DNA of 64,000 nucleotides, taken from Pyrus communis (taxonomy: Eukaryota > Streptophyta > Magnoliopsida > Rosales > Rosaceae). The DNA is taken from the NCBI RefSeq assembly GCF_963583255.1, contig NC_084806.1:27190735-27254734 (forward strand), read 5' to 3'. Within the stretch, counting starts at the first letter, position 1. Every line of letters starts with the position of its first letter. Under the pieces are notes generated by a model, which was given only the letters and a program-made list of their open reading frames with translations, did no database searches and was not told the DNA's origin. Positions 10,009 to 64,000 of the stretch are shown one piece after another. Both the position numbers and the translations under genes were made by a program.

Positions 10009-10013
10009 AATTT

Positions 10014-10031
10014 TGGCGCCGTTGCCGGGGA
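10014..10031 (+). promoter_or_regulatory. Primer binding site for tRNA-Asp
   Basis: TGGCGCCGTTGCCGGGGA, five bases after the LTR, is complementary to the 3' end of plant tRNA-Asp. This is the primer used by Athila elements. Confidence 0.9.
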
Positions 10032-10143
10032 TTAGCAACTTTGCTAATCCCTTGTCTTTATTTTTATAATTTTTTTGTTTTTCGTGCATTCTTATGTCAG
10101 ATTCTTAGTTTGTTTGTTTCCTTGTTTTTTTTAGGTACTGTGT

Positions 10144-16330: not shown

Positions 16331-16356
16331 CTGCTAAACAAAGAAAGATGGAGCCT

Positions 16357-17022
16357 TCACAAAGGGCGTTTACTTGAAGCCCCACTACTGGGCAAAACTC
16401 TAGGAGCGGAAGGCATCGGAGCGGAAGGCATCGGGGCGGAAGGTATCGGAGCGGGAGGCATCAAAGAAGAGGCCTCAATACTTGGCCAAACGCTGGATGA
16501 GCCCGGAAAAATGTGCCTCTGGAAGTAAGCCGCAAGCCTTTGACGGTCAGTTTGACGGTCACTTTGCATCCGACCATTGGATTCTTGTAGCTCATCAAGC
16601 TTCCTCTTCATACCCGTCGAATAGTTGTTGGCAAGCACGTGCAAACTTCTATTCTCGTACTTAAGCAGTTTGATCTCCTGCTTGAGACTTTCCACCTCTG
16701 CCATCAATGATTCCACCTGACGGGAGCGGGCAAGCAGGCGTTGGCCCATATTGGACACAGAGCTCGCACACTGAACACTAAGTGCGAGGGATTCTTGAAC
16801 GGCCAACTCATCGGACCGTCCTGACAGCAGCCTACTATCTTTTGGAGTGAGGAGGTTCCTAGCTACTATTGTAGCTGTTGTGGCGTCCTGCATCACGGAG
16901 TCTTCACCTGTGAGAGGACCGTTAGAAGAAAAGAAAGAAGGGCGCCATACGTTACCTTGACGCGGCGCGCCCGTATCACTGCTAAGGCTCAATTCCAAGC
17001 TAAGGTTCGATGAGTTTGCCAT
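16357..17022 (-). CDS. Antisense accessory ORF in Athila 3' region, coiled-coil protein (221 aa)
   Basis: ATG at 17022-17020, stop at 16357. The protein begins MANSSNLSLELSLSSD, has a conserved core around TGEDSVM, ARNLLTP and LLSGRSDELAVQESLALSV, then a predicted coiled coil (ESLMAEVESLKQEIKLL and the following leucine-rich residues, about 118-170), and a Pro/Ala/Ser tail with repeated 'PSAPM' units. It is antisense to gag-pol, between pol and the 3' LTR, the place where antisense accessory ORFs are known in Ty3/Tat elements. I do not recognise a named domain and assign no function. Its homologue is at 58595-59254; differences between them are overwhelmingly synonymous, arguing that the protein is made and selected. 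Confidence 0.75.
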   Translation of the reverse strand: MANSSNLSLELSLSSDTGAPRQGNVWRPSFFSSNGPLTGEDSVMQDATTATIVARNLLTPKDSRLLSGRSDELAVQESLALSVQCASSVSNMGQRLLARSRQVESLMAEVESLKQEIKLLKYENRSLHVLANNYSTGMKRKLDELQESNGRMQSDRQTDRQRLAAYFQRHIFPGSSSVWPSIEASSLMPPAPIPSAPMPSAPMPSAPRVLPSSGASSKRPL

Positions 17023-17029
17023 TTTCAAA

Positions 17030-18290
17030 AGTGTTCAAAGAGAAGGGGAGGATGAAGTTAAAATTGGCCGGAGTCAATTTTCAAGAATGGGAAATCTTCA
17101 GAGTGTGTTTGTTGTGGTGATCGATACCTCAATAAGAAGCCAAGGCGACGCGTCCACCGATTCAAAAAGCCGGAATTTCCGGCGTAATTTAGGCGACGCT
17201 TTCTCAGCTTTTCAGAAGACGTGTTCAACTTTGTCAAAAGAGTTCTTCTTTTCAGACAACACGTGGAGGCCATCAAAGCAACTACACATCTTTAGCCGAC
17301 AAGCGCAAAGTTCGGCGACGCTTTCTCAGCTTTTCAGAAGACGCGTGCAGCTTTGTCAAAAGGAGCCGCATCTGCACTACCACGTGTCGTTCAGAAAGCG
17401 AAGGGGCGTCGTTCTGAAATCGAAGGGGCGCCTGCTCAGAAATCGAAGAGGCGTGTTCAGAGATCGAAGAGGCGCCATTATTTCAAAAAGCCGGATTTGC
17501 GGGATCAAAACGTTTGTCGACAAAGGTAAAAAGTACCACCACTTGATATTATCTCTATATATGTCGACCTTCGTCTTTTATGGCAGGGCAAACCTGAAGA
17601 AAATGCCCAACTCTCTCTCACCTCTGAGGGCGCACTCCCAGCAAAGCCTTTCGAAATACTCAATTCTTTCTTCTTCCCCAAAGATGATACCAGATGCCTG
17701 GAGTACATATGACCCAGGAGGAAGCAGCACAACAAATACATGTGCTGATTCATTCACCGCTTCTTCAAAAGCAAAGGTATCTCATATCATCAAGGTCAAA
17801 AGCAAAAGTATCTCATATCATGCTCTTTCCCTGTCTTTTTCTTTGTCCTTGTTCTTACTCGCATGGCAAAGTAAAAGAAGCAATCAGCCGGCACTTGGAG
17901 TCAGTCTTCCGTTCTGGAGCCAACTGCCTGGAATCTATTCCTGATTGCTTACCTAGCGTTGCTCTCGAGTAGTCATCTTCAACGGTTGATAAACTTCCAG
18001 AGAAGGGACCACTTCTGCAAAGAGGAGCGAGTAAGGCAAGTGAAAATGATACATTGAAGCATGTGGAGACAAACATAGGCTGAGTTATCCTCCAACCCTT
18101 TTCAATACGAATTGGAAAGATTGAACAAAGAAACAGACCAAAGGAGTAAGCTCAGACCTTCGGGGGAGACCAAAAGAATCCTGCTGCCCAGTTCAAGAGT
18201 AGCACAAAGGAAAATCAACGATGGGAGGAGCCCCTGTGGAATCAACAACATCAAGCCTCAATGAAATCAATAAGGAGAAGATGGAATTTA
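17030..18290. other. Upstream half of the block: repeats, no supported gene
   Basis: Contains duplicated 'gacgctttctcagcttttca' modules (about 17195 and 17318) and three 'cgaagaggcg'-type units (about 17400-17475). A 285-codon plus-strand frame at 17087-17944 is not conserved in the homologous block at 57-58.5 kb, where indels break it, so it is not called. Confidence 0.6.
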
Positions 18291-20123
18291 CATTCCACAA
18301 CCAGATTTGCGTCTCTAAACTTTTCTCTTTGTTATTTACATTCTGCCATGTTTAGTATGTTTAAATGCTTTTTGTGTGTTTACTTATGCTTTGTATGATT
18401 TTAAGCTTAAAACATTGAGGACAATGTTTGATTTAAGTGTGGGGGTAACTAATGTTGTTAATGCAAATTCGTGGGATTTTATCGCCCATAACTTTAAAGG
18501 TTGTTCCTTACTGTTTTAAGGTGTTTTTAAGATGTTTTAGAGTGTTTTAGTATGTTTTGTTTTTATAAATCCGAAAATCACATAAAAATTTGAAAAACAT
18601 GTTTTGAAAAACCTAAAAATAGTGTTTTGAGTCGTTACAAAAAGAGTGTTTTAAAAAGAGTGTTTTGAGTCGTTTTTGTGTGTTTGTGTCTTAGGGTACC
18701 TTCCAACACAATGATGAGGATTTGGTTTGTAATTGCATGACTGTTAAAGAGAATTATAAACATGGATGAAAGTTTGATTTACTCTTGGTATATGTTTGGT
18801 TATGGTTATAATGTATGACTTCACATGCAATCATAAAAGAAAAATTCGTTTTTGTAACATGCTTGAAGGAAGGAACTCAAACAAACGCTACAACCCTGTG
18901 AGACTCGAGCCATTACTTTCTTTGGAGAGTTATTTTCTGTGATTCTTTGTTTTCTAAAGTTGTTGCATGATCTCATTATTCCTTGCTTGGTTGCTACTTA
19001 GAATGCAATTGTATCATGATAGAACTAAATGCTAGAACTTATATCCGTTTCATTCAAAGCATGATATTGATTGCATAACATATATCAAGATGAAGTTGTG
19101 TAGTTGCCACCATAGCCAAATAGCCTTACTTCCCATATTTCGTATATATTGTAAGTCTTAACCCCGTTGAGCCTCGTTTAACCTATTTTCTTTGCTAACC
19201 ACATCAACCCTTACCTAGCCTAGATTAGGACCATCCGTACCCTTGTTCTTAAAAGATAGTGAGCATGACTTAAATGAATTCCTTTTGAGTACATTATGAA
19301 AGAAAATGAGTGTGGGGGAGAGAATGTTTTGTTCTTAAGCGTTTATGTATGTTTTGAAAAAAAAAAAAAAAAAAATAAAAATAAAAAAAATAAATTGTGA
19401 AAAATATATGTAAAAGAAAAACAGAAAAGAAAAGAAAGAAAGGAAAAAGAACTTGTTCCCCCTTGATCAAAAGTTGAGTTTTCATTCAAAAGTGATTTCT
19501 ACGTTAATTCAAATGCTTTGCTCGCTATTTCTTTGAGAACCTTTGTTTTCCATATACCTTCTTTAGCCAAACACCTTTAGCCCCGTTACACCCCTTTGAC
19601 TTCTATCTTGATCGTTATGTGTTTAATAATGTGGAGTTTGGAATTGATATGAGCTTATGGAATCACTGGTTCTCATTCTAAGTAGTAGCATTCCATTCAT
19701 GAGATCATATTCATGTCGTTATCGTAAATTCAGAAAATGCTTTCCTTGTTATAACATATGTGAGTGTTCGTCTACATGTTTACATCAATCTTCTCACATA
19801 TAACTAGTGTAGGGTGTGTAGTCAGAAAATCTATGTGAAAATAGAGTGCATTCTAGTAAGGAATTGAGGGAATTCTCTAAGGCATGTTACTACATTCAAA
19901 ACATGGTTTTAAATGCTTAATTGTGAACTAGTATGTGGTGACTATGAGTAAGAATGTACTTAAGTGTAAAAATGGCTAAAATCTGTGGGAATAATGATTT
20001 TTAACTTGTCATGTGCTTTGGAAATCCCTGAGACGTTTGTTGGAAGGTTTAGGTTGTGTTTTACTTGTTCGTTTTGTTTTGTTTCTGGTTTCTTTTGTTT
20101 TGTTTTGCTCGAGGACTAGCAAA
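18291..20123 (+). other. Athila 3' non-coding region, right part
   Basis: AT-rich, no protein-like frame. It starts with the third copy of the ACATTGAGGACAA...GTGTGGGGG module (about 18405-18450). Another GTGTGGGGG tract is at about 19310. A long A-rich run is at 19360-19395. No envelope-like ORF. Confidence 0.6.
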
Positions 20124-20141
20124 GATAAGTGTGGGGGTATT
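20124..20141 (+). promoter_or_regulatory. Polypurine tract of Athila
   Basis: AGATAAGTGTGGGGGTAT lies directly against the 3' LTR start at 20142, the site of plus-strand DNA priming. Similar tracts occur upstream at about 15884, 18430 and 19307. Confidence 0.8.
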
Positions 20142-22028
20142 TGATAGGAGCATTTTCATGCGACTTAAATGGCTTGTTCTCGTGCATTTACGTTATGTTT
20201 CTTTAGTTATTTTAGTACTTTAAGCTATTTTCGTGTGTTTGTAGGTCGAAAGGGCTAAAGGAGCAAAAAGATGCATTTTGGAGACTTTTGGAGCACTTTT
20301 GGGCTAAGGACGGATAGCTTATGCTTGAAGCCAAAGTGTTGGACGAAATTGAAGACCTAATTGGAGCCAAAGTGTTGGAACCTTGTTCTCTTTAGTTTTA
20401 GGACATTTAAACCTTTCCTAATCCCAATCATGCCATGCATAACACACATCCATTCTAACACATTGTCATTGCACATGCATTTCCTTCATTAGTTAACCCA
20501 CATGCACTTATCACTTATCATCACCACATATCATATCACTTAATCACTTATCACTTATCATCACCACTTAACCACTTATCATATCATAACCACATATCAT
20601 ATCACATGCACTTATCACTTAACATATCATCCACCTACTTCACCTACAACATCCACCTACTTCACCTACAACATCCACTTCACCTACAACATCCACCTAC
20701 TTCACCTACAAATGACATAGCCATATGTTCCCTCCACTACTCCTATAAATACCCTTGCATTCATTCATTCATGGACATCTCATTTTTCATACACAACACA
20801 CCACAAACACTTCCATCTTCTCCCTAGCCGTGAGTCTCTCCATTTTCTGCACCATTCCCTTCCCTTTCTCCTCCATTTCTTCCATTTCCATAATCCCCCA
20901 ATCCATTCAACACACCAACAACATCCCTTAGTCCTTGTGCTACAACGAAGACGAAGAGAAGAAGGCCTAAACGTTCATACAATTCACGTTTGAGTTGTTG
21001 GAATGTTTACGCGTTTCTTTGATTTCAATGTTTAAATTCAATTCTCTTTGTTTTGTAATGGAAGAGAAGAGTGCCTAAACGTTCATACAATTCAAGTTTG
21101 AGTTGTTGGAATGTTTAGGTGTTTCTTTGATTTCAAAGTTATGAGGAACTAAACCCTTTTTGGCTAGGGGTGATTTCAATACCATGTTTATTTATGTGAT
21201 ATGAATTGATGAATTCCGGTTATGAACTCTTGATTCGTGAATGCAATTGGCTTAACTATTTGATGATTAACTTATTTGTGTTTGTTGATTGAGGGTCGAC
21301 ACTTAATTAGCATGCATGAATATGTGGCTAAAGTTTAAGAAGGTTTCACATAATCGTTACTAACTTATACTTGAAAGTAGTGAAGGTCGCTTGTCACGAT
21401 CGCGTTAAGTTTAATTCTTAGCATGAGTAACATGATGTCATAGTTACAAATGCTTTGTCAATGCTTATGGTTTTCATTATTCTTAATGATCTTCGATTGT
21501 ATCTCTATTATGATGACATGTAGGGAACTTTTGAGAATGTTTTGGGTTGTCGAATGATGCCATCCAATCCAATAATATAAGGAAAATCTAAGGGTTAACT
21601 AGTGATGTCACGGTTAATTTGGGGCATTGTCGTTCATAATTCAATGAAGGAATAACTGGAAATTGATTCATATGCATAAATATCATGTGTAGAGAAAGAA
21701 CCCTTAGCTAGCTTCCCATCCATTCATTTCCGTCAAATCCATATTTACAATTTGTTTTGTTTCCAAGTATTCATTTTAGTTTAAATTCGTCCAAATCCAA
21801 TTCCCCCCCCTATTTCGTTGAAGTCTTAGTCTTAATCTTTCTTATTTTTAGTTTTGCTTTCTTCGAGCATTAAATAGTGTTTTATATTGTGTTTTTATGT
21901 TTTTAAGTCAATTTAGAAGGTTTTAGCAAGCCCTCCTAATCCCCGGTCTAGAACGATCCCTCACTTATCCATTCTACTACAATTGTCAAACGAGGGTTTA
22001 ATTTGAGTGTCAAGTAATTCTCGCATCA
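20142..22028 (+). repeat. Athila 3' LTR
   Basis: 1887 bp, indistinguishable by eye from 8122-10008. Followed at once by the target duplication GCAGT (22029-22033). Confidence 0.95.
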
Positions 22029-50038: not shown

Positions 50039-51369
50039 TCATGGGGGTGGCAACAATGCACTAATGAACAACAGTCGATGCTCATCGGCTGTGCCATTAT
50101 TTATTTCTTCTAATGGGTCCTTGACTTGGGGCCGATTGTCTTCGAGTTCAGCTGGTGTGGCCTGAACTTTGTCGAACGATAAAATGGGGTCGTTATCTGC
50201 TTCGGCCAAAAATTTGGTTAAGTTTATGCCCGAGTGTGGTTGCTTGGCAATGGCATACCAATGAGCCAGCAGACGTTCCATGGTGGATGAAACCGCAGCC
50301 CGACGCCTTTCTTGTTTAGCGACATCAGTCATCGGTGTTGGTAATTAGATCTGCCAAGTCGAGTTTCACCGAATCATGTTATACAGTCTAGGCGCCTACC
50401 TTGATGGCTTTCTGAACTGAAATTCGAGTCGGCTGTCCGTCCTCGTTAAAACCCTGGAGGGTGATGTAGTCGACGTGATCATCATAATAGCGAGCTTGGA
50501 TCATGTTGGTTTCAAACGGCTGGATGAACTATGACCGATTTGCCGTTCCAAAAGATGAGAACTTGGTATAGCGATGAAGGAATGCAACTTGTTTGATGGA
50601 TCCAATCGCGATCGAGCAATGCATTATAATCAGTCTTTGAGTCAATTATAAAGAATGCCGTCATGTGGTTGTAACCGGCAACGTTGACTTTTAACGGGAG
50701 CACTCCTTTGGTTTGAGACTTGTCATCGATGAAGCTGCTCATCATTATCCCTGATAGTATAAGCTTGTCATTGGAACGGCGTAATGCCTTCATGATGGAA
50801 ATTGGCATGATGTTGACTGTGGCTCCACAATCGACAAACACCTTGGAAATGGGGTATCCTTCAATATGAGCAGTGACATATAACGACTTTAGATGTTGGA
50901 GATTAACAGAAGAAGAGCAGGGAAACAATTCGGCCATGGCTGCCTTAAGTTTGTCGCCTTTACTGATTTCCCTATCTTCCTTAGTAGTGATGAAATCCAC
51001 TTGTGTTGCTTCTTCGGCAACCACTTCCCAATCCAAAAAATTTGACTGATGGGTTCTCGGTTGAAATTCAGCCGGTAGGACATAGACCATGCTAATTTCC
51101 AGATTAGTAGATGTAATATCAGTCTTTGGAGTGGATTCAATTGGATTATTTAGTGCCTCGGTATATACCTGCTCCTGGGGCGCGTGGACTGAATCTATTC
51201 CATTTTGGTCATCTTCCTTGAGCCTGTTTATTGCCGAAGAGTGATTTCGTTCTTGTAGTGCTTTACAAGCTTGTTCTTCGTAGGCGATTCGGGCGTTCCT
51301 TATGTCCAGGTATGCATCTAAACGCGCCACATGATTTTCCTTATCGGCCGTAAGGCCGAAAAGAAACAC
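50039..51369 (-). pseudogene. Protease region and PR-RT linker of the Tat element
   Basis: The frame 51369-50512 contains the retropepsin-like motif VDCGATVNIMP (DCGA in place of DSGA) and LLDRDWIH, typical for Tat elements. The frame 50332-50039 encodes the linker with LLAHWYAIAKQPHSG. Stops separate the two. Confidence 0.75.
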
Positions 51370-52470
51370 GGTTGAGAAGACCTCGAAATGATATCGCAGA
51401 TGCTGAAGGTCTTCGAGTGAAAAAGGTAACTCGGCAGGGTTTACATCTGTGTATGGGTAGACCTTAAAGCCGAGGACTCGAGCCTCACGTATATGCTAGA
51501 ACCTAGCTTTTATTGCTGGATCAGTGGTTTTCTGGATAATTTGTTCAGCATCAGGGCAAGTTAGTGCGAGGTCGAAGGCTTCCTAACATGCCTTGGGCAG
51601 TCCGTACAAGTCATTGGCGGAATATTTCTTATGAAATTCCCGCATATACTCAAAGGATTCACTGAGGAATGGAGGGTGCAGATTACGCCGTACTTTTATT
51701 AATGGTTCCTGCGGTGGTAACGGGGGAAGTTTACTTTTAGCTTCTTATCTGAAATGCACGAAACGAGCTCTCATCTTTCCAGGCCGAAGAAGGAGCTTGA
51801 TGCGTTTCTCAAACTCTTCAATGGTGGTTTCAAAGTCGTGATCAATATCTTTTTTCTCTTGAAGTAATTCGGCCATAATGGTTGGGGTAGGCCGGTCGTC
51901 GCCGCTTCCTATTGCCTCTTTTGGCTGCCACCGGGTAGTCGAATTGTCTTGTGCTTCTTGTCATCGAGCTATGCAATCTGTCTGCTGGCGATGACGTTTT
52001 TGAGACTTAGATAATGCCGTATATAGGCCAGTTGGAGAATTGTAACTGTACCAACGTTGGTCACGTGGCTTAGGCGACTTGAAGGTTTTTCGACCTACAG
52101 ATGAACTCGAGCTGTCGGAGTTGCGCTAGTAATAATCCTCATTATAGAATGGCGTGTCAAAGTCAAGACGTCGTCTGACTGGCGTTAGGTCTTTTGCTTG
52201 TACTTGTGGGCCGAGTCTCTTAAACATTTGCCGTCGTTGGCCGGCACCGAGTTCTTTCAGCGGTTTTGCTGCGGCCGTGGACGGCAAACATGAAGTTGGT
52301 GCTAGAGATGCTCTCTTTTTAGGTTTAATTCATGTTTTACAGTGGTTGCACAAAACCATTGATTCATTAGTGTTTTCAGAACTAAAACCTGACATGGGTT
52401 CAAGGATGGCCGGACCTGAAGGCTCCGTGGGTGGTGTATTTGAAAATAAATCAATCTTAAGTCTCGGCTG
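51370..52470 (-). pseudogene. Decayed gag-protease spacer of the Tat element
   Basis: Only short broken minus-strand frames are seen. It lies between the zinc-knuckle part of gag and the protease and is treated as part of the dead polyprotein. Confidence 0.5.
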
Positions 52471-52476
52471 ACCACC

Positions 52477-54180
52477 CTACTTACAGACATGCTGTATCGG
52501 GACAGATTCGACCTTCCCTTTTCCTTTGTTTTTAGGGAGATGAGCATCCATCATACCAATTGTCATCGAGGGGAAGGGATTGACGTCAACCGCCATCTGT
52601 TTCTCAGGGAATTTTAACTTACCCTTCTCAATCCAACTTTGAATTGCATCACGGAACACGACGCAATTATTGGTAGCATGCTTGTTTGAATTATGGTACT
52701 TGCAATATGTTTTGGCTTTCAATTTTTCGGCCTTAGGGATGTTGTGTCCTGGCCGAAGTTTGATGATCTTTGCTACCAACAACTGGTCGAGAATTGCATT
52801 GGCCTTGGTGATATCGAAAGTGTAAACTTTTGATGTTTTAATCATCTCTTCAGAGGCCGAGCGGGTCTTGGCATCTTTGGGACTGATTTGAGCTAATGCC
52901 TTGCAAACGTATGGTTTCTCTATCACTATTTCAGCCGCGTCCACACTGGCGTATTGGGGGTCCTCGCTTTTGGCCAATGTGTAGCTGACTGTGGGATTCT
53001 TGTATATTGTTCCCCGGGATGGGGACTTTTGATATTTTTTCCTCTCGGAGCAAATAATCATACTGCTCAATGTGCTGAGCAAGTTCGTACATATCTCGAA
53101 TATTTGCCCCCAGGAATTTCTTTTTGTATTCCACGTCCAGGCCGTTTAGGGCAATTCTGACAAATTCAACTTTAAGTATTCCATTGGCGATTCGTTTGAA
53201 GCTTGAGCTATCCTAGCTAACGATGAAACAGACAATTCCATTCCTGGTCGATAGAATTGTTCATGGAATTTCTCGACCAATTCCTCCCAACTCTGGACGA
53301 AGTTCGGTGGGAGATTGATGTACCAAGCAAAAACTGAACCTGTTAGTGAAAAGTTGAATAGCCATAGTTTATGGAAGTCGCTATTAACGTCTCCACATTG
53401 CGCAGTGAACCGAGCTACATGTTCTAACGAAGATAAGGACGATTCTTCGGCGAAAAGAATGAAGTCGGGGATCTTGAAGCTTTTAGGGTATTCGAACTTT
53501 TCCACATAAGCCGGGTACAGATGGATGAACTTTGGGAACTTCGGCCTTTTTTTTAAGGCCGAGTCGATCATTCTTTGGACCTCGGTCATATTGACGGATG
53601 CTACTTCTACTTCCTGGTCAGGCCCATCAGATCTACTGCTTGATTCGCCTATTTTTTCCAAGTTAATTGGTTGTATCCGAGCGGATCCTTTCTCGGCTTC
53701 TAATGGAACATTCTTAAAGGGAGGCTGTCGAGGTTGGCTGACGTGGCCATCTTCGAAGGCTTTATTGACCAATAATTCAAGCATCCTGGTCTGTGTATCA
53801 CTATTGCTTCGTATTGTGTCAAGCAAATCATTCATTTTCTGGCCAATCGATTGTTCGATTTGCCGAGATTGTTCATCAAGTCGTCTTCGAAGAAATGACC
53901 TAGTTGGCGTATTAGAACCCTCCTCACCATCTTCGTCGTAATCTTCCATTATTCATTCGATGAAAATGCTTGCCGTTTGGTTGGGAATTTCTGGGTTGCG
54001 AGGTTGTCCGTCGAGACAAATTTTCTTCTCTCGGTGTGTCGTACTTGTAGCCTCAGGTGGCATAACAATGAGGGGATTTTGCGCTTGAGATAAATCTTGT
54101 CCAGGGCCTTGCACTGGTAAGTTGGTTGTTGACTTTTCCATGATTGTTTTCTTCTTTACGGACCGTGTCTCAATGGTCAT
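52477..54180 (-). pseudogene. gag of the Tat element
   Basis: Three successive minus-strand frames. The first is 54180-53953, starting MTIETRSVKKK and ending at a TGA. The second, 53949-53146, contains the gag core with SLTGSVFAWYINLPPNFV, SWEELVEKFHEQFY and SLARIAQASNESPMEYL. The third, 53134-52477, contains the knuckle-like YCKYHNSNKHATNNCVVF. A stop and a frameshift separate them. Confidence 0.85.
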
Positions 54181-54224
54181 GAACTCCGAAGGTCTAGCAC
54201 AATGTCCCACCGGGCATGCCAAAA

Positions 54225-55389
54225 TGTTGACCCTAAAAACTATCAAGTCTACGTGGCGCGTAGGCCGAGTAACTAATAAGCTAACTACGTCTTTTGGCTA
54301 AATGCGGGGCGTGCCAACTCGTCGGCCGAGGAGTAAAATTTGTTGATGTTGCATTGAAAGTGTTGCTGACTTCTTTATCTTGCGACTGCGGCCGATGAAG
54401 AAACAAATCTCGGCCTTTGGATTCTCGAGCTTGAAGACAAGGCTGCTAGTTCTGCGAAGTTCACAAATCGTCGGCGCCGGATTAAGTCACGGTGATTATA
54501 TTCGTGAGAGTATAAACACGTTTAATCGACACTAGACTGTACGGACACAAGTATTTAAAGGTGATGTATGTCTTGATGGTGAATGTGGTTCGACTGTCAG
54601 AATGCCGAACTCTGAAACTCACTTGTGAGTATCCAATCATAAAATCACTCGACGTTCAATGCGCCGAATATCGTAACCTGTAACACCTTACTTCGCCGAG
54701 AAGGCTAATAAGATGACCTCTGCCAATAAGGATTCGGAAACCTTTCTCAACTGAGACTTGGATAAGTAACCAGTCGGCCTCAATGCAGTGCTGTTTATCC
54801 AAACTCAAGGTGTTCCTCGGTCGGCTGATTCTATAGCAACAATATTGTTTATCCAAACTGAAGGTGTTCGCCGGTTGCCTTCACAGTGCTGTTTATCCAA
54901 ACTAAAGATGTGTCGGTGGAAAAAGGAAAATAAAAAATCTCAAGATGTTTGAGAGGTTTTGCGCAGGGTAGTTGTGTGTTGAATCGGAGGTCCCTGAATT
55001 GCACCCTCATTTCTCTATTTATAGCAGGAAAACCCAATCCTAACCATACTCGAACTAGGACTCCTTACCCCAATCCATCTTATCTCGGCCAATCCCATTT
55101 CTATTAAGATTTTGAATTCAACCTCTTACTAGGCCACATTCACTTCCACTTTCTGGTATCCTTATCTGGCCGAGAATCCTTACTGCATCAGGACTTAACC
55201 ACTTCATTCATCTGCTTCGCAATAGGGCCTACCTACTTCCTATTCATCTGGAACATTTTTTTCCAAACAGGGCTTGGCCGACTTGTAGTTGGGCGGCCCA
55301 TGAACCGGCTAGTTTGTAGAAATCCTCGAACATAGCTTCTAGGCCGAGAACAATTCCACACTCGGCCCAACCCAATAATTTTGAGTACA
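54225..55389 (-). repeat. 5' LTR of the Tat element (1165 bp)
   Basis: On the minus strand it begins TGTACTCAAAATTATTGGG and ends GGGTCAACA. Directly after it comes TTTTGGCATGCCCGGTGGGA, a primer-site-like sequence common in this lineage. A TATA box lies inside. Many 'cggcc' motifs (for example 'ctcggccga') are scattered through it. Confidence 0.75.
55015..55024 (-). promoter_or_regulatory. TATA box of the Tat LTR
   Basis: CTATAAATAG on the minus strand, about 365 bases into the LTR. The same ten bases occur in the neighbouring LTR of element X. Confidence 0.65.
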
Positions 55390-55392
55390 AAC

Positions 55393-56519
55393 TGTAAACA
55401 CGAAAAATTCCTGAAACAAGAAACAAGAATACGTGTACAAAGTATATTTTTTGTGTTAATGATTTTGGGGTTACAATCTCTTTGTAATTTGATCCTCTGA
55501 TTCTATCTTCGTAGGGTGTAGGTTTGTGGATGAGCTGTTGATCCAAAGGGCCGTTGGGGCTTGATCTAAGGATGAACGGATGATGAACACTTTCTTCAAG
55601 GGGCATTCGGGGCTTGATCTTGAATAATGGTTGTGTGGATTTCTTCAAGGGCTTTTGGGCTTGATCTTGAATGAACGGATGATGAACGATGAACACTTTC
55701 TTCAAGGGTCGTCGGGGCTTGATCTTGAGTCGGTGGAAGTTCTTCAAGGGCCGTCGGGGCTTGACCTTGAAGGTTGATGGATGAACGGATCTTCAAGGCT
55801 TTTGGGCTTAATCTTGAAGAACGATTGGATGTGTGAATTTGTTGAGGTTGTTGATCCAAAGGGCCGTTGGGGCTTGATCTTGGGATGAACGGATGATGAA
55901 CACTTTCTTCAAGGGCCGTCGGGGCTTGATCTTGAATCGGTGAAAGTTCTTCAATGGCCGTCGGGGCTTGATCTTGAATGAACGGATGATGAACGATGAA
56001 CACTTTCTTCAAGGGCCGTCGGGGCTTGATCTTGAGTCGGTGAAAGTTCTTCAAGGGCCGTCGGGGCTTGACCTTGAAGGAGGATTTGACGAAGAACGAA
56101 GAGTGTTTTCTTGATCCTTCGGGATTTGCTTGAGAGCTTTAGAGTTTCGAGGCTTCAAGGTTTTGGTGTGATGTAAATTCCTTTCCTTCTTTTTTCCTCT
56201 TCTTTCTTTCCTCCCTTCTTCCTTTCTTCCTTCCTTTCTTCCTTTCTTCCTTTCTTCCTTCCTTTCTTCCTTTCTTCCTCCAAAATGAATGCCTTGGCTT
56301 CCTATTTATAGAATTCCAAAACTTGATTTTTGGATTTAAATAATCAGATGAAATAAATCATTTTTGCCAGGTATTGACACGTGTCCTATTTGATGACCTT
56401 TCCAATTTATTTCGATTTTTTGTTGAGTCACACGCTACATGTAAAATTTATGTGACACGTGAGCGTTGAAATTTTAATTATTGGTTAACATTCATTTCAC
56501 CGAAATTTCGATGTCTACA
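55393..56519 (-). repeat. 3' LTR of element X (1127 bp)
   Basis: On the minus strand it begins TGTAGACATCGAAATTTCGG and ends TTTCGTGTTTACA, so the ends form a short inverted repeat (TGTAGACA / TGTAAACA). It contains a TATA box, an (AAGG)n/(GGAA)n run downstream of it (about 56180-56280), and a tandem array. The other LTR must lie beyond 64000; a target duplication CAAAC (55388-55392) is predicted there. Confidence 0.75.
56302..56311 (-). promoter_or_regulatory. TATA box of the element X LTR
   Basis: CTATAAATAG on the minus strand, about 210 bases into the LTR, followed downstream by a purine-rich (AAGG)n leader. Confidence 0.65.
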
Positions 56520-56533
56520 AATGCCCCCACTTC
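56520..56533 (-). promoter_or_regulatory. Polypurine tract of element X
   Basis: GAAGTGGGGGCATT on the minus strand abuts the LTR start TGTAGACA. It resembles the Athila tract (AAGTGTGGGGGTATT). Confidence 0.75.
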
Positions 56534-57189
56534 AAGGCGCGTCGTTGACATGTGCTTGTCAAGTGTAGAAGATGCGTTTTGAAGTCCCTTAATGTAGATG
56601 TCAACCCAAGGGCCGTCGAGGCTTGATCTTGAATTGAGCTGGAAATTTCTTCAAGGGCCATTGAGGCTTGATCTTGAGTTCGACTGGAAGATTTTCTGGT
56701 TTTCTCCAATCGTTGATTTCCCACAAGCTTAATCTTGAACTGGGCTGGAAGATTCTTTTGGTCTCCTCCGAAGGTCTGAACTTACTCCTTTTATCTGGAG
56801 TTGAATTTGATTCAAGGGTGGTGAACACTTGATTTTGAATCGGACTTGTGATTTCTTCAAGGGCCATTGAGGCTTGATCTTGAGTTCGACTGGAAGATTT
56901 TCTGGTTTCCTCCAATCGTTGATTTTCCTTTGTGCTACTCTTGAACTGGATTGCAGGATTCTTTTGGTCTCCCCCGAAGGTCTGAACTTACTCCTTTTAT
57001 CTGGAGTTGAATTTGATTCAAGGGTGGTGAATCACTTGATTTTGAATCGGACTTGTGATTTCTTCAAGGGCCATTGAGGTTTGATCTTGAGTTCGACTGG
57101 AAGATTTTCTGGTTTCCTCCAATCGTTGATTTTCCTTTGTGCTACTCTTGAACTGGATTGCAGGATTCTTTTGGTCTCCCCCCGAAGGT

Positions 57190-58594
57190 CTACGAGCGGT
57201 TTCAGGATATGGCAGGCAAGTACAAGGTGGAGGTGCTGACCTGTTTCTTTGTTCAATCTTTCCAATTCGTATTGAAGAGGGTTGGAAAGATTGAAGTTTC
57301 CTTGTCCCTTCTCTGGCAGTGTATCAACCGTTGAAGATGACTACTCGAGAGCAATACTAGGTAAGCAATCAGGAATAGATTCCAGGTAGTCGGTTCCAGA
57401 TCGGAAGACTGACTCCAAGTGCCGCTGACTGCTCTCTTTCACTTTGCCATGCGAGTAATAACAGGGACTAAGGAAAAGACAGGGAAAAAGCATGATATGA
57501 GATACCTTTGCTTTCGAAGAAGCAGCGAATGAATCAGCACATATATTTGTTGTGCTTGTCTCCACATGCTTCGATGTATCATTTTCGCTTGCCTTACTTG
57601 CTCCCCTTTGCAGAAGTGGTATTTCCTTATGCAGGTTTAGCATCTTCTCTTGTAGTATTTGTCCTCCGATGCAGGAGTTGAATGCAACCTTTGCATTTAA
57701 ATGGTGCTTCACTCCTTGGTGGCAACTGGTTTGAGTGGAGGTTCCGACATATTGCTTCCTCTGTCCTTGTCTTGGCAGGTGAGAACAAGGGCAAAGGAAA
57801 AGATAGGGAAAAAGCATGATATGAGATACCTATGCTTTCGCCCTTGATGATATGAGATACCTTTGCTTTTGAAGAAGCGGTGAATGAATCAGCACATGCT
57901 TCAATCTATCGTTTCCTCCTGGGTCATCTGTACTCCAGGCATCTGGTGTCTTCAAAGGTTGAATAGGTTTTCTCAAGGGAAGAAGAAGAATTGAGTATTT
58001 CGAGAGGCTTTGCTGGGAGTGCGCCCTCAGAGGTGAGGAAGATTTGGGCATTTTCTTCAGGTCTGCCTTGCCATAAGAGACGAAGGTCGACACATATAGG
58101 GATTTCTTAATAGCAAGTGGTGGTACCGTTCTTTTACCCTCGTCGACAAACGTCTCTTCGATATCTGAACGACGCCCCTTCGATTTCTGAACGACGCCTC
58201 TTCGATTTCTGAACGAGCGCCTCTTCGATTTCTGAACGAGCGCCACTTTTGATAAAGTTGCACGCGTTTTCTGAAAAGCAGAGAAAGCGTCGCCGAACTT
58301 TGCGCTTGTCGGCTAAAGACGTGTAGTTGCGATGATGGCCTCCACGTGTTCTCGACTTTGTCAGATATCTTTTGACAAAGTTGAACGCGTTTTCTGAAAA
58401 GCCGCGAACGCGTCGCCAAACTTCACGCAGGAAAATCCGGATTTTTGAATCGGTGATCGTGTCGCCTTGGCTTTTTATAGCGGTATTGATCACCCCAACA
58501 TTCACACTCTGAAGATTGCCCATTCTTGAAAAATTGTCTCCGACCCTTTGAAATTTTTTTTTTTTATCCCTTCTCTTTAAACACCTTTGAAAAA
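57190..58594. other. Upstream flank of the element X accessory ORF; repeats, no supported gene
   Basis: Homologous, reversed, to 17030-18230 in the Athila element. Contains four tandem 'tcttcgatttctgaacgac' type units (58145-58250) and duplicated 'cgcgttttctgaaaagc' modules (58263 and 58387). A minus-strand CTATAAAAAG lies near 58466-58475. Short frames on either strand are not conserved between the two copies. Confidence 0.6.
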
Positions 58595-59254
58595 ATGACT
58601 AACTCATCGAACCTTTGCTTAGATTTGAGTCTCAGCAGCGATCCGGTTGTGCCCCGTCAAGGTAATGTATGGCGCCCTTCTTTTTTATCTTCTAACGGTC
58701 CTCTTACAGGTGAAGACTCTGTGATGAAGGACGCAACAACAACTACGATAGTAGCTAGGAACCTCCTCACTCCTGAAGATAGTCGGCTGCTTTCAGGACG
58801 GTCCGATGAGTTGGCCGTTCAAGAGTCCCTCGCTCTCAGTGTTCAGTGTGCAGGCTCTGTGTCCAACATGGGCCAACGCCTACTTGCTCGCTCCCGCCAA
58901 GTTGAATCCTTGATGGCGGAGGTGGAAAGTCTTAAGCAAGAGATCAAACTGCTTAAGTACGAGAATAGAAGTTTGCATGTGCTTGCAAATAACTATTCGT
59001 CGGGCATGAAGAGGAAGCTTGATGAGCTGCAAGAATCCAATGGTCGAATGCAAAGTGACCGTCAAAGTGACCGTCACAGGCTTGCGACTTTCTTCCAGAG
59101 GCACCTTTTTCCTGCGTCATCTAGCGTTCCACCCATATTTGAGGCCTGGAATGCTCTAGCTCCGATGTCTTCCGCTCCGATGCCTCCTGCTCCGATGCCT
59201 CTCGCTCCGAGAGTTTTGCCAAGTAATGGGGCTTCACGTGAACAACCTTTGTGA
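58595..59254 (+). CDS. Antisense accessory ORF of element X, coiled-coil protein (219 aa)
   Basis: ATG at 58595 (after a run of A), stop at 59252-59254. The protein starts MTNSSNLCLDLSLSSD. The core has RQGNVWRPSF, NGPLTGEDSVM, VARNLLTPEDSRLLSGRSDEL and LALSVQCAG, then a heptad-like region (ESLMAEVESLKQEIKLLKYE and following, about 117-170) and a Pro/Ala/Met tail with 'APMP' repeats. It is opposite to gag of element X. The Athila copy at 16357-17022 is homologous along the whole length; the middle is almost identical in protein but not in DNA. Function and family name are unknown to me. A coiled-coil protein that binds RNA, Gag or a host factor is only speculation. Confidence 0.78.
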   Translation: MTNSSNLCLDLSLSSDPVVPRQGNVWRPSFLSSNGPLTGEDSVMKDATTTTIVARNLLTPEDSRLLSGRSDELAVQESLALSVQCAGSVSNMGQRLLARSRQVESLMAEVESLKQEIKLLKYENRSLHVLANNYSSGMKRKLDELQESNGRMQSDRQSDRHRLATFFQRHLFPASSSVPPIFEAWNALAPMSSAPMPPAPMPLAPRVLPSNGASREQPL

Positions 59255-59261
59255 AAGCTCC

Positions 59262-59670
59262 AATCTTGTATCTTTTTTTTTTTTTTTTTTTTCACATATG
59301 TAAGCACATATCTGTAATTTATCAGAGATATCAATAAATAAACTTTATTTTATTTAACGTAATGTGCTAAATAGAGCGCATATATATATATATATTTTTT
59401 TTTTCCACATGGTGCCGGTGCACCAAGATCCTCTTTTTTTTTTTTATTATTATTATTTTTTTCTTTTCTTTGCTTTCGGTGGTTATGATCCACCAAGATT
59501 TATATATATATATATATTTCAGATGGTGCCAGAAGCACCATCATTGTTTTTCTCTTTCTTTTTATTATATATATATTTTTTCTTTTTAATTTTTTTTTTT
59601 ATTATTCTTTTGAAAGATGCTTCCCAGCATCATCATTGCTATTTTTTTTTTTTTTTTTTTTTTTTTTCTT
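59262..59670. repeat. T-rich tract with four spaced hairpins
   Basis: Hairpins at 59410-59425 (TGGTGC/GCACCA), 59478-59494 (GGTGG/CCACC), 59522-59542 (GATGGTGC/GCACCATC) and 59616-59631 (GATGC/GCATC) are each followed by T-rich or TA-rich runs of 25-70 bases. A run of about 25 T ends the stretch. No coding. Confidence 0.7.
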
Positions 59671-59739
59671 CTTTAAATGGCCATCTGCAAGGCTGAGTTC
59701 GTGGGTGAAAACCCAGGCCGAGTTCGAGAGAAGACGGAG

Positions 59740-59879
59740 GAGATCTTTGGGTGTGAGTTGACAAACTTTGATTTTGTCGATCACATTCAAAGGCAGCAGC
59801 AGAGGCAAGCAGACGGATGAGATCTTTGGGTGTGAGTTGACAAACTTTGATTTTGTCGATCACATTCAAAGGCAGCAGC
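59740..59879. repeat. 79-bp-period duplication
   Basis: GAGATCTTTGGGTGTGAGTT and the following 41 bases occur at 59740 and again at 59819, without visible change. Confidence 0.92.
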
Positions 59880-60147
59880 CATGGCGGAGGTGCAGAAGCA
59901 GCCAGATCTTGAGGCAGAGTGTAAGGCGTCGAGTTTGAAGACCGGCTAGTCGTTTGACAGCGGTCAATGAAGCTCTTCGTTGATTTTGATCACGAGGGTG
60001 ACGAGCTTGAGGTTATTGGTAGCGGCTAGGAGACAGAGGAAGAAGCTATTCTTCTTGTTCTACCATGGAAGATGAACCTCTGGAATCCAAAGCTCCACCA
60101 TTACCATCACTGAGCACAGCCACTAACAACAACCATTGCACATCGCC
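59880..60147. other. Unassigned junction sequence left of the BAG piece
   Basis: Exon-like base composition but not recognised. The BAG frame stays open through it on the minus strand to a stop at 60046, adding about 33 non-BAG residues. Confidence 0.35.
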
Positions 60148-60363
60148 TTCTCCGTCTCCCATGATCCCGTCTAATTTAAGCAACTGGTTCATCAATTGCT
60201 CAATCAGAACAAGCACATCTTGCTCTGCAACATTTTTACCTTTACTGATAATTGATTCAAGAGCCGACACCTGGCCAGCAAGCCTGTCTACTTCCAAGCT
60301 GATTTCGGAGATGGACTTCGAAGCCCTTTCCTTGTCTTTGAATATCAATTTCTGATCTTGATC
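60148..60363 (-). pseudogene. BAG-domain co-chaperone gene fragment inside element X
   Basis: The minus-strand frame reads [20 protein letters not shown], then [19 protein letters not shown] and LVLIEQLMNQLLKLDGIM. This is the BAG domain of plant BAG1-4 proteins, which bind the Hsp70 ATPase domain. About 70 codons remain with no stop; the usual continuation after LDGIM is missing and the frame runs on into unrelated sequence to a stop at 60046. The piece is in the sense direction of element X. Confidence 0.82.
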
Positions 60364-60552
60364 GGTGGAGGCACCGAGTTCCGATCAGAGACATCTCTCC
60401 ACTGAGATCACCAACAACCCTTCTCAACATACTCCCATGAACAAAATCATCCAAATCCCACCAAAACCACCAAAAAACAAGAACCCAAAGAAAAAACTGA
60501 AGGGCCGGAGAGAGAGAAAGGACCTTGAATTCAATTGGGTTTTCTGTTTTTG

Positions 60553-60985
60553 ATGCCGCAATTGGTGATGTATCCCAATACTCATTCTTTTCAATCTCCC
60601 ACAACCGAGCAAACCAATCGAGAACACCAACCTCGAACTGCCTTGAATGGGCACCGTAGTTGTTCTCGATAAACGGATCGCCCAAATTGTTGATGGAGAA
60701 ATGCTGAAGCTGTGTTAGAGGACCATAGTTGAAGTCCAAATTGTACAGATAACCCAGATGGTGCTCGGTCCTCTCGATGAGGGTTTTGCGAAAGCGGGCG
60801 AGGACGCTGGCCATGTACATCTCCTTATCGTCAGTGAAACCGCCATTGGATTCAGGCTCCATCACGGCGAGGCACGTGGTGTGCACGTTCCGGCCGAGAA
60901 CCATCTGTTTTTCCCGGCTGCCTTTGTGGTCCTCGGCCAATTTTCCGAGGAGATTGCAGTCATCGGTGCTAGTTACGATCAGAGG
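60553..60985 (-). pseudogene. Serine decarboxylase gene fragment inside element X
   Basis: The minus-strand frame contains [55 protein letters not shown] and [19 protein letters not shown]. This is the N-terminal part of plant serine decarboxylase (PLP-dependent, makes ethanolamine). After EYW one G of a GGGG run is missing relative to the expected TGGGGATAC, so the frame shifts near 60574; the shifted frame gives YITNCG and then the similarity ends near 60553. The PLP-lysine region is absent, so no activity is possible. About 145 codons, one orientation with the neighbouring pieces. Confidence 0.87.
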
Positions 60986-60989
60986 CAAA

Positions 60990-61211
60990 TGAGATGAGAT
61001 TGAGCTCGTGGATGCTGCTAGCAGATCTATAGTTGCTAGCTTTCAACGAATTGCCGCACTGGAGAAACTTGTCGACGTCAACGGCAGAGACGAAGAAGAT
61101 GGAGTTGTTGAAGTAGAGGATCAGCGAGCAGGGGAATGAGTGCTTGGAGAGAAATCTTGACGGCAAGAAAGAGAAAGTTCGATCGAAGATGAAGCCCATT
61201 TTGATCATGGT
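60990..61211 (-). other. Unassigned exon-like piece in the captured cluster
   Basis: The minus-strand frame after the 14-3-3 piece reads on as [20 protein letters not shown] and [11 protein letters not shown]. It is protein-like and in the same orientation as its neighbours, but I do not recognise the source gene. Confidence 0.4.
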
Positions 61212-61303
61212 GGAGACCTTCTCGACGAACTCGACCATCTCCTCGTAGCGCTCGGGTTGCCCGGCGAGTTTGGCCATGTAAACGTTCTCTTCGCGGGGGG
61301 AGG
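61212..61303 (-). pseudogene. 14-3-3 protein gene fragment inside element X
   Basis: The minus-strand frame reads [20 protein letters not shown] followed by [10 protein letters not shown], the start of plant 14-3-3 proteins (usual form [27 protein letters not shown]). About 30 codons; the rest of the phosphopeptide-binding protein is absent. Confidence 0.85.
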
Positions 61304-61305
61304 GG

Positions 61306-61431
61306 GTGAATCGGACTGCTGGCAGAAAGCGCACAGTGGTGATGCTTCTTGACATCAAGTAGCTGCAGGCCCATCAGTCTTCGACTTTGAATTTCAAGTG
61401 CTTGCTGCAACTCAGCTTGCTTCTCCAGCTT
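61306..61431 (-). pseudogene. CCCH zinc-finger/RRM protein gene fragment inside element X
   Basis: The minus-strand frame reads [20 protein letters not shown] then [16 protein letters not shown]. This resembles the conserved region after the RRM of a group of plant CCCH zinc-finger proteins (usual form E.QADLQQAIELQ.RRLM.LQLLDVK). About 40 codons. It abuts the ITPK piece on one side and the 14-3-3 piece on the other with almost no gap. Confidence 0.7.
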
Positions 61432-61590
61432 CTAATCGTCTCCGTAGAGCTTGTGCAGCACGCAGTCGAACGGCCCCTGATCTGCCAGCGAGCGCTCAGT
61501 GTCGATCCGAACGAGATCGATGCCCCGCGATCTGGCTAGGTTGACCAGCGACTCTTGGATGAAGCTTTGCTGCTTCTTGGGCAATGAAAT
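61432..61590 (-). pseudogene. Inositol-tetrakisphosphate 1-kinase (ITPK) gene fragment inside element X
   Basis: The minus-strand frame reads [20 protein letters not shown] then [20 protein letters not shown] and LHKLYGDD, followed by a TAG where the family has Trp. This is the N-terminal MutS-like part of plant ITPK1-type kinases, which phosphorylate inositol phosphates on the way to phytate. The ATP-grasp domain is absent. About 50 codons. Confidence 0.85.
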
Positions 61591-62060
61591 TGGCAGGGGT
61601 TGCTGCTGGGTTCCTTTTCTTCCTCTGGGATATTTGATTTTGTGTGTTTGGTGATCTCCGAAAGAGGGACTGCAAAGCCAGAGTCACGTGAAAGTAAGTT
61701 CCCAAGGCCCATTGAGGGCATCGCATGCGGCTTTGAGAGTGAGTAGGGCCCGGTTCTTTTGGGCATATGGGCCTTCGTCCTCAACACAACAAACCAGCCC
61801 ACCATTTTGGGCTTGTCGACATTTTGCTTTCTCTTCCTTTTTTTTTTTTTTTTTTTTTGCTTTGTTGAGTAGAGAATATATATATATATATATATATTTT
61901 TTTTACATAGTAACATATGTATTTTTTTTTCCTTTTCTTTTGTAATAAAATTGACTTTCTTTAATGAAACATTTATTTATTTATTTTGATGTGACTGTAC
62001 TTGAAGTTTTGAAGTTTCAAGTTGCCTACGTACTCTTCCAACGAAGAGATCAAGTCATAA
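61591..62060. other. Right flank of the captured cluster; T-rich and TA-rich
   Basis: Contains a run of about 22 T (61838-61859), a (TA)n run (61878-61898) and a further T run. It mirrors the T/TA-rich stretch left of the cluster. No gene. Confidence 0.5.
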
Positions 62061-62104
62061 CGTAGTTCAAATGAGTGATGGTTTTGATGATGATTTTGCC
62101 GTAC

Positions 62105-62425
62105 ACAGTTTATGCTCTTGCGGGCCAGGAGCGTTTGGTGCCGTTTGCAGTTTCAGCTCATGCAGACAAGGAGCTTTTGGTGCCGTTTGCAGTTTCAGCT
62201 CATGCAGGCAAGGAGCTTTTGGTGTCGCCTTTTATGCTCGTGCGGACAAGGAGCGTTTGGTTGTCACCTTTTAGGCTCGTGTGAACGAGGAGCTTGTGAT
62301 TATCGCCTTTTAGGCTCGTGCGAACGAGGAGCTTGTGGTTATCCGCCTTTTAGGCTCGTGCGAACGAGGAGCTTGTGGTTATCGCCTTTTAGGCTCATGC
62401 GAACGAGGAGCTTTTGATTGTTGTT
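62105..62425. repeat. Tandem array of about 40-bp units downstream of element X gag
   Basis: About eight units: three of the type 'tttcagctcatgcagacaag' plus 'gagcttttggtgccg', followed by about five of the type 'aggctcgtgcgaacgaggag' plus 'cttgtggttatcgcctttt'. The array starts two bases from the gag stop codon. It leaves frames open on the plus strand, which are not considered genes. Confidence 0.9.
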
Positions 62426-62426
62426 G

Positions 62427-64000
62427 TCAAGCGATCTTAGAGAGGCATTCCTTGCAATCTTCATAGCAAGGAGTCTTGACTGAGTGATTGAAGAAGTCTT
62501 TGGGGAAGAAATCGCGCGTCGTGATGGCAACGGACGATCTTTGTGTCATAACTTCATCATCCTCAACACTTTCATGTAGCTTTGAAGGTTGACGGTAGCT
62601 GCTTTGCCCCCTTTCCGATTGGTGAACTTGTGGAGGAGACCTATGTTTCTTGTGCATTTTCTTTGGAGTGACATAAGTCCATCCTTCATCTTCACTTGAC
62701 TTGACTGACATGGTTTTGGAGCATGCCCCCAGCGGTTGAGGCGAAGATTTTGAGTTCAAAGAGCCAGAAGTGACGGAGGTATAGTTTGATTTCACCACAT
62801 CATTAAGATCTAACTCGATGATCCCTTTCTGAGCCAACTTCATGATGAGATCTTTTAGCACAAAGCACTTTTCCGTCGGATGACCAATGAAGCGGTGGAA
62901 TTTACAGTACCTTGGACTGTCAGTACGGTTCATCTCTTCCGGCCGTTTACACTCAGGTAGGTTGATCACCTTTTTTTCCAGCAAGTCATCTAACATGGCA
63001 ACCACGTCAGAGTCGGGGAATGGATAAGTCTTCTCCTCAAGCTCCTTCAAAGTGCGTCTACGTATCTCTTGATCACGAAAAGCTTCGGTTTGAATCGCCT
63101 TGCCTCGTGTATGGGTTTTGACTGGAGTTGTGTTGACCGTCATTGCTTCCTTGGTGGGTTTCCACGTAGCCTTATCCACCTTTGGCCCCAAAACTTTGTC
63201 ATTCTTGTAGTCGGCGATCTGTTCTTTCTTCCCATGACGGGTGATGCTTAACTCCATATCATGGGCGCGGGTGGCTAACTCCTCAAATGTTCGTGGTTTG
63301 ATGCCTTGAAGGATGTAGTGTAGTCCCCACTGCATGCCTTGAACGCACATCTCAATGGCAGAGGTTTCAGAAAGCCGATCTTTGCAATCCAGACTTAAAG
63401 AACGCCATCTATTTATGTAGTCGATGACAGGTTCATCTTTCCACTGTTTCGTACTGGTCAGCTCTAGCATGCTTACAGTACGACGAGTGCTGTAGAAACG
63501 GTTGAGGAATTCCCTTTCTAGCTGGTCCCAACTGTTGATAGACTCAGGTTCGAGGTCAGTGTACCAGTCAAAAGCGTTACTTTTTAGCGAACGCACGAAC
63601 TGTTTGACGAGGTAGTCTCCCTCTGTCCCAGCATTGTTGCAAGTTTCAATGAAATGGGCGACATGTTGCTTCGGGTTGCCTTTTCCATCGAACTGCATGA
63701 ATTTTGGGGGCTGATAACCCCTTGGCATCTTCAAAGCATCAATCTTCTTGGAGTAAGGCTTTGAGTACAGTACGGAGTCATGCGAGCTTCCTTCGTACTG
63801 TGTCTTGACAGTGCTTGCGATCATCTCCTGTAGCTGCTGGATAGAGAGAGATCCCATGAATGCCGTTGCTTGGTCTAGCTTCGGCTTCTCTTCAACTTTT
63901 TCCGCTGGTGGCTCCTCTTCTTCGTCGTCTTCTTTCTTTAATAGGCCAACATTTGGGTCGACTTTCACGTCGGGCAGCGCATCTAGTTGGTTGACAAGTG
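62427..64000 (-). CDS. gag of element X (5' end beyond window)
   Basis: The minus-strand frame is open from the window edge to a stop at 62427, at least 524 codons. It contains the Ty3 gag core: [57 protein letters not shown] and [20 protein letters not shown] knuckle-like [20 protein letters not shown] follows in the second half (CX3H...H...C form). The C-terminal third is Ser/Lys-rich and ends CKECLSKIA. There are no stops or frameshifts, so Gag could be made. Protease and RT do not follow. Gag would assemble the particle that packages the element RNA; replication would need enzymes from another element. Confidence 0.88.

Follow-up and report, generated by a model that had tools for sequence, protein, structure and literature searches.

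A cargo slot of host-gene fragments in a gag-only LTR retrotransposon family of pear

Introduction

How do fragments of several host genes come to lie end to end inside a single retrotransposon? The question is raised by a 64,000-nucleotide stretch of the pear genome (Pyrus communis, C4:27190735-27254734 of a 487-Mb assembly in 29 contigs; hereafter the window, with coordinates above 64,000 extending past its end), which holds much of element X, a long terminal repeat (LTR) retrotransposon with a gag gene. A first-pass annotation, made from the sequence alone, had described a cluster of host-gene fragments within this element. Gene-fragment mosaics are typical of Pack-MULEs and Helitrons, and gene capture by retroelements has usually been studied from rare single events. 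We consider it highly probable that a fixed slot in these elements is filled by template switching from spliced host mRNAs, and that element X belongs, as a gag-only form, to a Ty3/gypsy lineage with gag-pol kin in the same genome.

A composite cargo between gag and an antisense reading frame

Element X is a complete LTR retrotransposon of 10.95 kb on the minus strand, flanked outside both LTRs by the 5-bp target-site duplication (TSD) GTTTG (Table 1). In sense order it contains gag, 42/39-bp repeats, the cargo, the locus of an antisense open reading frame (ORF; hereafter aORF), further tandem repeats, a polypurine tract (PPT) and the 3′ LTR; a primer-binding site (PBS) was recognised by eye, and a domain search found no pol domain in the element. 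The two top-scoring proteins in a search with its gag come from Pyrus ussuriensis x communis. TR-GAG elements are defined by LTRs and gag without pol, and element X, with two LTRs, TSD, PBS, PPT and a gag ORF, resembles them, although its host cargo lies outside that definition.

The slot between gag and the aORF (about 60,047-61,709) is occupied by nine abutting pieces, comprising fragments of ITPK, CCCH zinc-finger, 14-3-3, serine decarboxylase (SDC) and BAG genes, one spliced transcript without a name (U2), and three pieces whose source was not identified (U1, P1 and P2). In sense they run P1, P2, ITPK, CCCH, 14-3-3, U1, SDC, U2 and BAG, followed by an edge piece shared with other X copies; about 40 bp between U1 and SDC belong to neither, and the joint there could not be placed. 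The ITPK piece matches Pfam PF17927 (E 7e-19) and an ITPK structure in the PDB (7e-19), the BAG piece matches PF02179 (6e-10) and PDB BAG1 (4e-21), and the SDC piece has a PDB match at 2e-51 together with 81% identity to Malus SDC over 34% of a composite query. For the 14-3-3 piece the PDB match (4e-10) is accompanied by a Pfam match below cut-off (0.04), while the CCCH piece, without a Pfam match, is 82% identical to a Malus protein named hypothetical at source, a lower match being "Zinc finger CCCH domain-containing protein 46". The best match of each cargo piece elsewhere in the genome reaches 97-100% DNA identity, which excludes chance.

Strand could be read, from protein or splice sites, for six pieces (ITPK, CCCH, 14-3-3, SDC, U2 and BAG), and all six lie in sense. 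The multi-gene mosaic in sense within a gag-bearing LTR element that had been proposed from the sequence is borne out, as are its five named families on the minus strand. Its extent, given as 59880..61600, holds in its core but not at its ends, of which the right reaches 61,709 and the left lies at about 60,047-60,164, and its list of pieces lacked P1, P2 and U2. A 79-bp tandem duplication at 59,732-59,879 is backbone that is present in other X copies. The gene that the annotation left unnamed, here U1, still has no named protein relative, since the protein matches examined for a query containing it all fit CCCH; matches to U1 of at least 89% occur only in X copies or an X-like remnant, with one further match (80%) on C1.

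Table 1 Features of element X and of its cargo in the window copy
Feature	Position	Strand	Support or nearest match
Element X, whole	55,393-66,343 (extended coordinates); in-window part 55393..64000	-	LTR pair and TSD
3′ LTR (TGTAGACATC...GTGTTTACA)	55393..56519	-	1127 bp
PPT adjoining 3′ LTR (AAGTGGGGGCATT)	56520..56532	-	read from sequence by eye
206-bp tandem repeats, backbone	56645..57191	.	repeat scan
aORF, 219 aa	58595..59254	+	ORF list, dN/dS
Slot-flanking backbone, aORF side, with the 79-bp duplication	59670..60047	-	
Slot edge piece common to X copies	60000..60164	-	L012 100%, L013 and L016 99.4%, L015 98.8%
BAG-family chaperone regulator mRNA fragment	60149..60390	-	one intron exactly gone, two internal deletions; parent C5:27188813-27189532
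U2, spliced transcript fragment of unnamed host gene	60379..60560	-	parent C3:14997797-14998541; 564-bp intron gone
SDC mRNA fragment	60554..60989	-	97-bp intron gone; nearest gene C3:1662335-1662868 (90-95%)
U1 piece	61030..61219	-	other X copies (C3:11738300 at 95%, others)
14-3-3 mRNA fragment	61209..61308	-	97% to longer 14-3-3 piece in X copy L044; 94% and 93% to two more loci
CCCH zinc-finger protein fragment	61297..61432	-	nearest locus C5:1689988 (98%)
ITPK N-terminal fragment with short leader	61423..61612	-	X copies L028, L029 (98%); gene C4:26154487 (98% over 160 bp)
P2, unnamed piece	61603..61668	-	C2:4273801 (98%)
P1, unnamed piece	61667..61709	-	C15:6235458 (98%)
Gag-side slot backbone	61701..62148	-	homologous stretch after pol ORF in pol-bearing relatives (82-83%)
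42/39-bp tandem repeats behind gag	62106..62413	.	repeat scan
gag ORF, 950 aa stop-to-stop	62,430-65,279 (62430..64000 inside window)	-	PF03732
5′ LTR	65,217-66,343	-	3 differences from 3′ LTR in 1127 sites

Cargo pieces carry the marks of splicing

Genome-wide mapping covered the cargos of the window copy and of copies L015, L017 and L039, and breaks between each piece and its single parent were counted in the first three. Twenty-one of the 25 breaks are exact losses of GT-AG introns. In the window, introns are absent at GT-AG sites from the SDC (97 bp), U2 (564 bp) and BAG (one intron, 86 bp) pieces. The malic-enzyme piece of L015 consists of eight consecutive exons of C10:3470314-3471607 with all seven introns exactly gone, and L017 holds pieces of two exons (C5), six exons (C17) and eight exons (C14), whose junctions are exact in 1/1, 4/5 and 6/7 cases, respectively. 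The C17 parent is bHLH-like by eye only, with part of the gene lacking a Pfam match, and the C14 piece has a Vps35 match below cut-off.

These losses bear on the view that the fragments arrived in a nested DNA transposon, a Pack-MULE or Helitron that had captured them before inserting into element X. Precedent speaks for it, since mosaics of this kind are characteristic of those transposons and the available text of a maize survey counts 1194 captures by Helitrons and 462 by other DNA transposons (PMC2774510), but the introns that capture from genomic DNA would retain are missing here, mostly to the base. The same slot moreover holds different contents in other copies (see below), and its edges offer only inverted arms of 20-30 nt in AT-rich, low-complexity sequence; arms of that length were all that an inverted-repeat scan of 56.5-64 kb for Pack-MULE ends returned, target duplications not being part of that scan. 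We give this explanation next to no chance. The rejection of a nested Helitron or MULE was made on intron loss, Helitron ends not having been searched for.

The slot is filled differently in other copies

A protein search with the X gag gave 48 scored copies among 5340 loose candidates, at 94-100% identity including the window's own; 27 of the 48 have no stop in the match, and the open frames of the scored copies measure 943-1045 aa. Nine full slots were compared (the window, L012, L013, L015-L019 and L021). All nine are filled between shared flanks, and host fragments were identified in eight, in L012, L013, L015, L016, L017 and L021 by Pfam or mapping and in L018 because it has the same cargo as L017 (96-99%). 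Matches above the Pfam cut-off comprise malic enzyme and kelch in L015, patatin and acid phosphatase in L013, acid phosphatase in L012, 14-3-3, papain and DAHP synthase in L016, and KNOX1 and F-box in L021. Among sense ORFs of the slots, eight of ten chosen by hand have Pfam matches against none of the ten longest antisense ORFs, a weak comparison given that choice, and one of six further sense ORFs has a match. Cargo length in seven slots ranges from 1643 to 2566 bp (mean 1949), with cut points set by eye and the shared BAG part left out in L015 and L016.

The first-pass annotation had suggested surveying other copies for the same cargo. What they hold is mostly different, but some pieces and joints are common. 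Only the L017/L018 pair has its whole cargo in common; sharing is otherwise partial, with 930 bp common to L015 and L016 and about 1.1 kb, including backbone, to L012 and L013, and the remaining cargos are mostly unrelated. The window, L015 and L016 share a BAG internal deletion and the joint between BAG and the tail but differ in their upstream neighbours, SDC occurs in different contexts in L014, L017, L018 and L021, and the ITPK, 14-3-3 and U1 pieces of the window recur at loci with an X gag anchor (L028, L029, L044 and L030). In L014, which lacks the anchors and stands outside the full-slot set, SDC and U1 pieces lie among scattered matches to the X backbone. Pieces thus recur in different combinations, which is what recombination among copies would produce.

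Several slots also contain single open frames that join two families. Patatin and acid phosphatase lie within one 372-aa frame in L013, and kelch motif with malic enzyme and 14-3-3 with papain protease are joined likewise in the group of slots L013, L015 and L016; DAHP synthase shares its frame with a RING-like stretch below cut-off.

Joints show microhomology

Exact overlap was scored at 12 joints. Two belong to L017 and the other ten, which include the two BAG internal deletions, to the window; another X copy stood in for the donor at the P2/ITPK, CCCH/14-3-3, 14-3-3/U1 and BAG/tail joints. The mean overlap is 5.75 bp, compared with 0.71 for random joins of the same sequences; two gapped rows were corrected by eye (CCCH/14-3-3 from 6 to 3, BAG exon 1/2 from 9 to 1), the uncorrected mean being 6.67. 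Without the two largest values (P2/ITPK 10, BAG/tail 16), the mean over ten joints is 4.3 bp. In simulated sets under a two-geometric model, with its mean taken from the overlap comparison, none reached the observed means for all 12 or for ten joints.

Such joints, like intron loss, also bear on a two-step route in which mRNAs were first retroposed into X copies as processed pseudogenes and the mosaic arose by later DNA recombination. Absent introns and the presence of some pieces at several genomic places are what it would predict. However, no poly(A) tail or target duplication was seen at the piece ends of the window cargo (by eye, without a dedicated scan), the pieces abut at microhomology, and the six of readable strand are all in sense, so we regard this route as very unlikely.

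A further alternative places the shuffling of cargo after capture at the DNA level, by gene conversion or unequal exchange among copies, and not in particles. The window is identical to L012 over 60,000-60,164 while the wider match (59,732-60,164) is only 87%, and the BAG/tail joint has a 16-bp overlap, both of which would fit such exchange; the remaining joints have only 1-10 bp of homology, and the copies are scattered over many contigs. We judge it fairly unlikely, and because it leaves capture itself unexplained it could only supplement another process.

Exact intron loss together with joint microhomology points to spliced mRNA and template switching rather than to a nested Helitron or MULE, and the parental introns, whose presence or absence the first-pass annotation had named as the discriminating observation, came out on the side of mRNA. 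On this account the lineage maintains a slot for cargo behind its last sense ORF, which may be gag or pol; in element X the aORF bounds the slot on the other side. Host mRNAs would enter particles beside element RNA, and during minus-strand synthesis reverse transcriptase (RT) would use short homologies to leave element RNA for an mRNA, to move to further RNAs and finally to return, as we infer from pieces that are spliced, in sense and joined at microhomology. The two-LTR product would then integrate, be transcribed and recombine with other copies, so that pieces would accumulate, be trimmed and move between copies; the timing of the capture steps is likewise presumed. Element X has no RT, and both RT and integrase would be supplied in trans by gag-pol relatives.

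Several observations weigh against this account. Four of the 25 breaks are not exact intron losses, namely the two BAG internal deletions (one within an exon) and two inexact junctions in L017, with a gap of 2 bases at exon 4/5 of the C17 piece and additional sequence at exon 3/4 of the C14 piece. The ITPK, CCCH and 14-3-3 pieces align as single uninterrupted blocks and therefore cannot tell an RNA from a DNA source, and genome mapping identified no source gene for U1, P1 or P2. The filling of L019 has three sense ORFs without a Pfam match. Finally, the SDC piece and its nearest gene are 5-10% apart, with silent sites accounting for most of the difference (pN 0.047, pS 0.185). Because of this divergence the real donor may be absent from the assembly, and that copy may have been lost, left unassembled or come from another species; the apparent constraint between piece and gene suggests that the donor had diverged before capture.

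Relatives with pol have the same slot

A search with P0182, a gag-protease-RNase H relative, scored 38 of 8160 candidates; 17 of the 38 have open frames of at least 2400 aa, and 13 of these 17 have no stop in the match. At two loci, L039 (C7) and L040 (C12), an integrase ORF ends about 5 bases before X slot backbone that is 82-83% identical to window 62,148-61,701. With this backbone directly behind the integrase ORF, the slot can be assigned to the part of the element that follows pol, and element X looks like a form that has lost pol. The L039 ORF has Pfam matches to rve and H2C2, and by their coordinates the two integrase ORFs are presumably part of two 2719-aa frames from the P0182 search. 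The two loci show no mismatch over 3159 aligned bases (24 gap positions) and are either a very recent copy or an assembly duplicate.

Their slots are filled as well. One piece, whose splice sites were not read, aligns with three blocks (95-97%) in a multicopy gene cluster on C14; by eye the cluster looks like one of leucine-rich repeat (LRR) resistance genes, and the cargo has LRR similarity below cut-off and one weak PDB match (E 2e-4) to a plant NADase receptor. A piece of the same cargo (q112-531, 98%) was also found on C8, where it follows a gag-only copy at a distance of about 0.6 kb; cargo thus seems to pass between gag-pol and gag-only members.

The X gag (L022:3165-6014) is chimeric, with residues 503-939 matching the P0182 gag and residues 101-435 matching P0182 854-1156, behind its protease stretch.

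Relation to known systems

Capture by LTR elements is itself already known from Bs1 of maize, described in the available text as an LTR element with fragments of three host genes (PMC13317346, PMC7264820, PMC5408686). Element X likewise carries intron-less fragments of more than one host gene between its LTRs; Bs1 is one family with three genes, whereas X has about nine pieces in one copy, other cargo in other copies and pol-bearing kin with the same slot. A search of the open-licence literature gave, among the matches listed, no family-wide multi-gene hypervariable slot, which is weak evidence. The model of LTR-mediated retroposition by template switching (Tan et al. 2016, as reported in part in PMC5408686) has mRNA joined to element cDNA at microsimilarity and treats several switches as theoretically possible; element X shares such joins and differs in its many donors in series and its constant slot.

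Gene fragments or retrogenes have been reported in LTR elements of maize, rice, sorghum and pepper, and in pepper the elements that harbour about 72% of the retroduplicated NLRs have no gag or pol, according to the portions available of three papers (PMC2774510, PMC3726574, PMC5664825). The maize text, as far as available, records 425 LTR elements with gene fragments and, under the conditions used, none combining fragments from more than one standard nuclear gene (PMC2774510), whereas element X holds fragments of several. Retand, in the available part of its description, includes non-autonomous members and has, ahead of the 3′ LTR, a long region in which antisense ORFs and tandem repeats occur; the sense ORFs of this region encode no known domains, and 97% of clusters have a TRP28 antisense ORF (PMC11963269). 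Element X has a comparable long region with tandem repeats and an antisense ORF, although TRP28 (PF04195) is not among the Pfam matches of its aORF at E<=1.

A broader reading, which we offer tentatively as possible, is that of an RNA-level cassette system, in which the fixed slot would accept, and might even require, a filling of about 1.6-2.6 kb. Template switching among co-packaged mRNAs and element RNAs would keep renewing that filling, and the family would amount to a shared, exchanging library of host transcript fragments. If so, it would play among retroelements the part that integron arrays or Pack-MULE populations play elsewhere, and would steadily generate in-frame fusions as well as RNA with homology to host genes; cargo RNAs could hypothetically feed the silencing of those genes. 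The two-family open frames (patatin/acid phosphatase, 372 aa; kelch/malic enzyme) bear on exon shuffling. Many copies with successive captures stand together in one genome, and their donors, splice scars and joints can be read, which makes it possible to count how often, in what order, from which donors and by what homology rule template switching proceeds.

Constraint, age and neighbouring elements

Ratios of replacement to silent substitution rates (dN/dS) were taken against the window copy (rows L059 and L060 repeat L012 and L013). Of the 14 other copies, 13 give 0.26-0.42 for the aORF, the exception being L021 (1.31), where changes are few; for the C-terminal part of gag the ratios lie at 0.19-0.50 in all six copies compared, two of which have one internal stop. 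Judged by these ratios, gag and the aORF are under selective constraint. Constraint is not clearly seen in the malic-enzyme piece of L015, which has 6 replacement and 4 silent changes and one new stop. With a substitution rate of 1.3e-8 changes per site per year, as for rice, LTR divergence would date the insertion of element X to about 0.1 million years ago.

The window contains two other LTR elements of note. A remnant of a second gag-bearing element, whose gag is 23% identical, lies on the same strand at 50039-54297. At 8122-22028 stands a gypsy element with a 1842-aa gag-pol ORF, identical 1.89-kb LTRs and the TSD GCAGT, which we take to be Athila-like from its PBS. It holds, in sense, an X-like segment (16336-18229) with an intact aORF (dN/dS 0.20, dS 0.39 against the X aORF); the aORF seems to have moved between distinct LTR elements.
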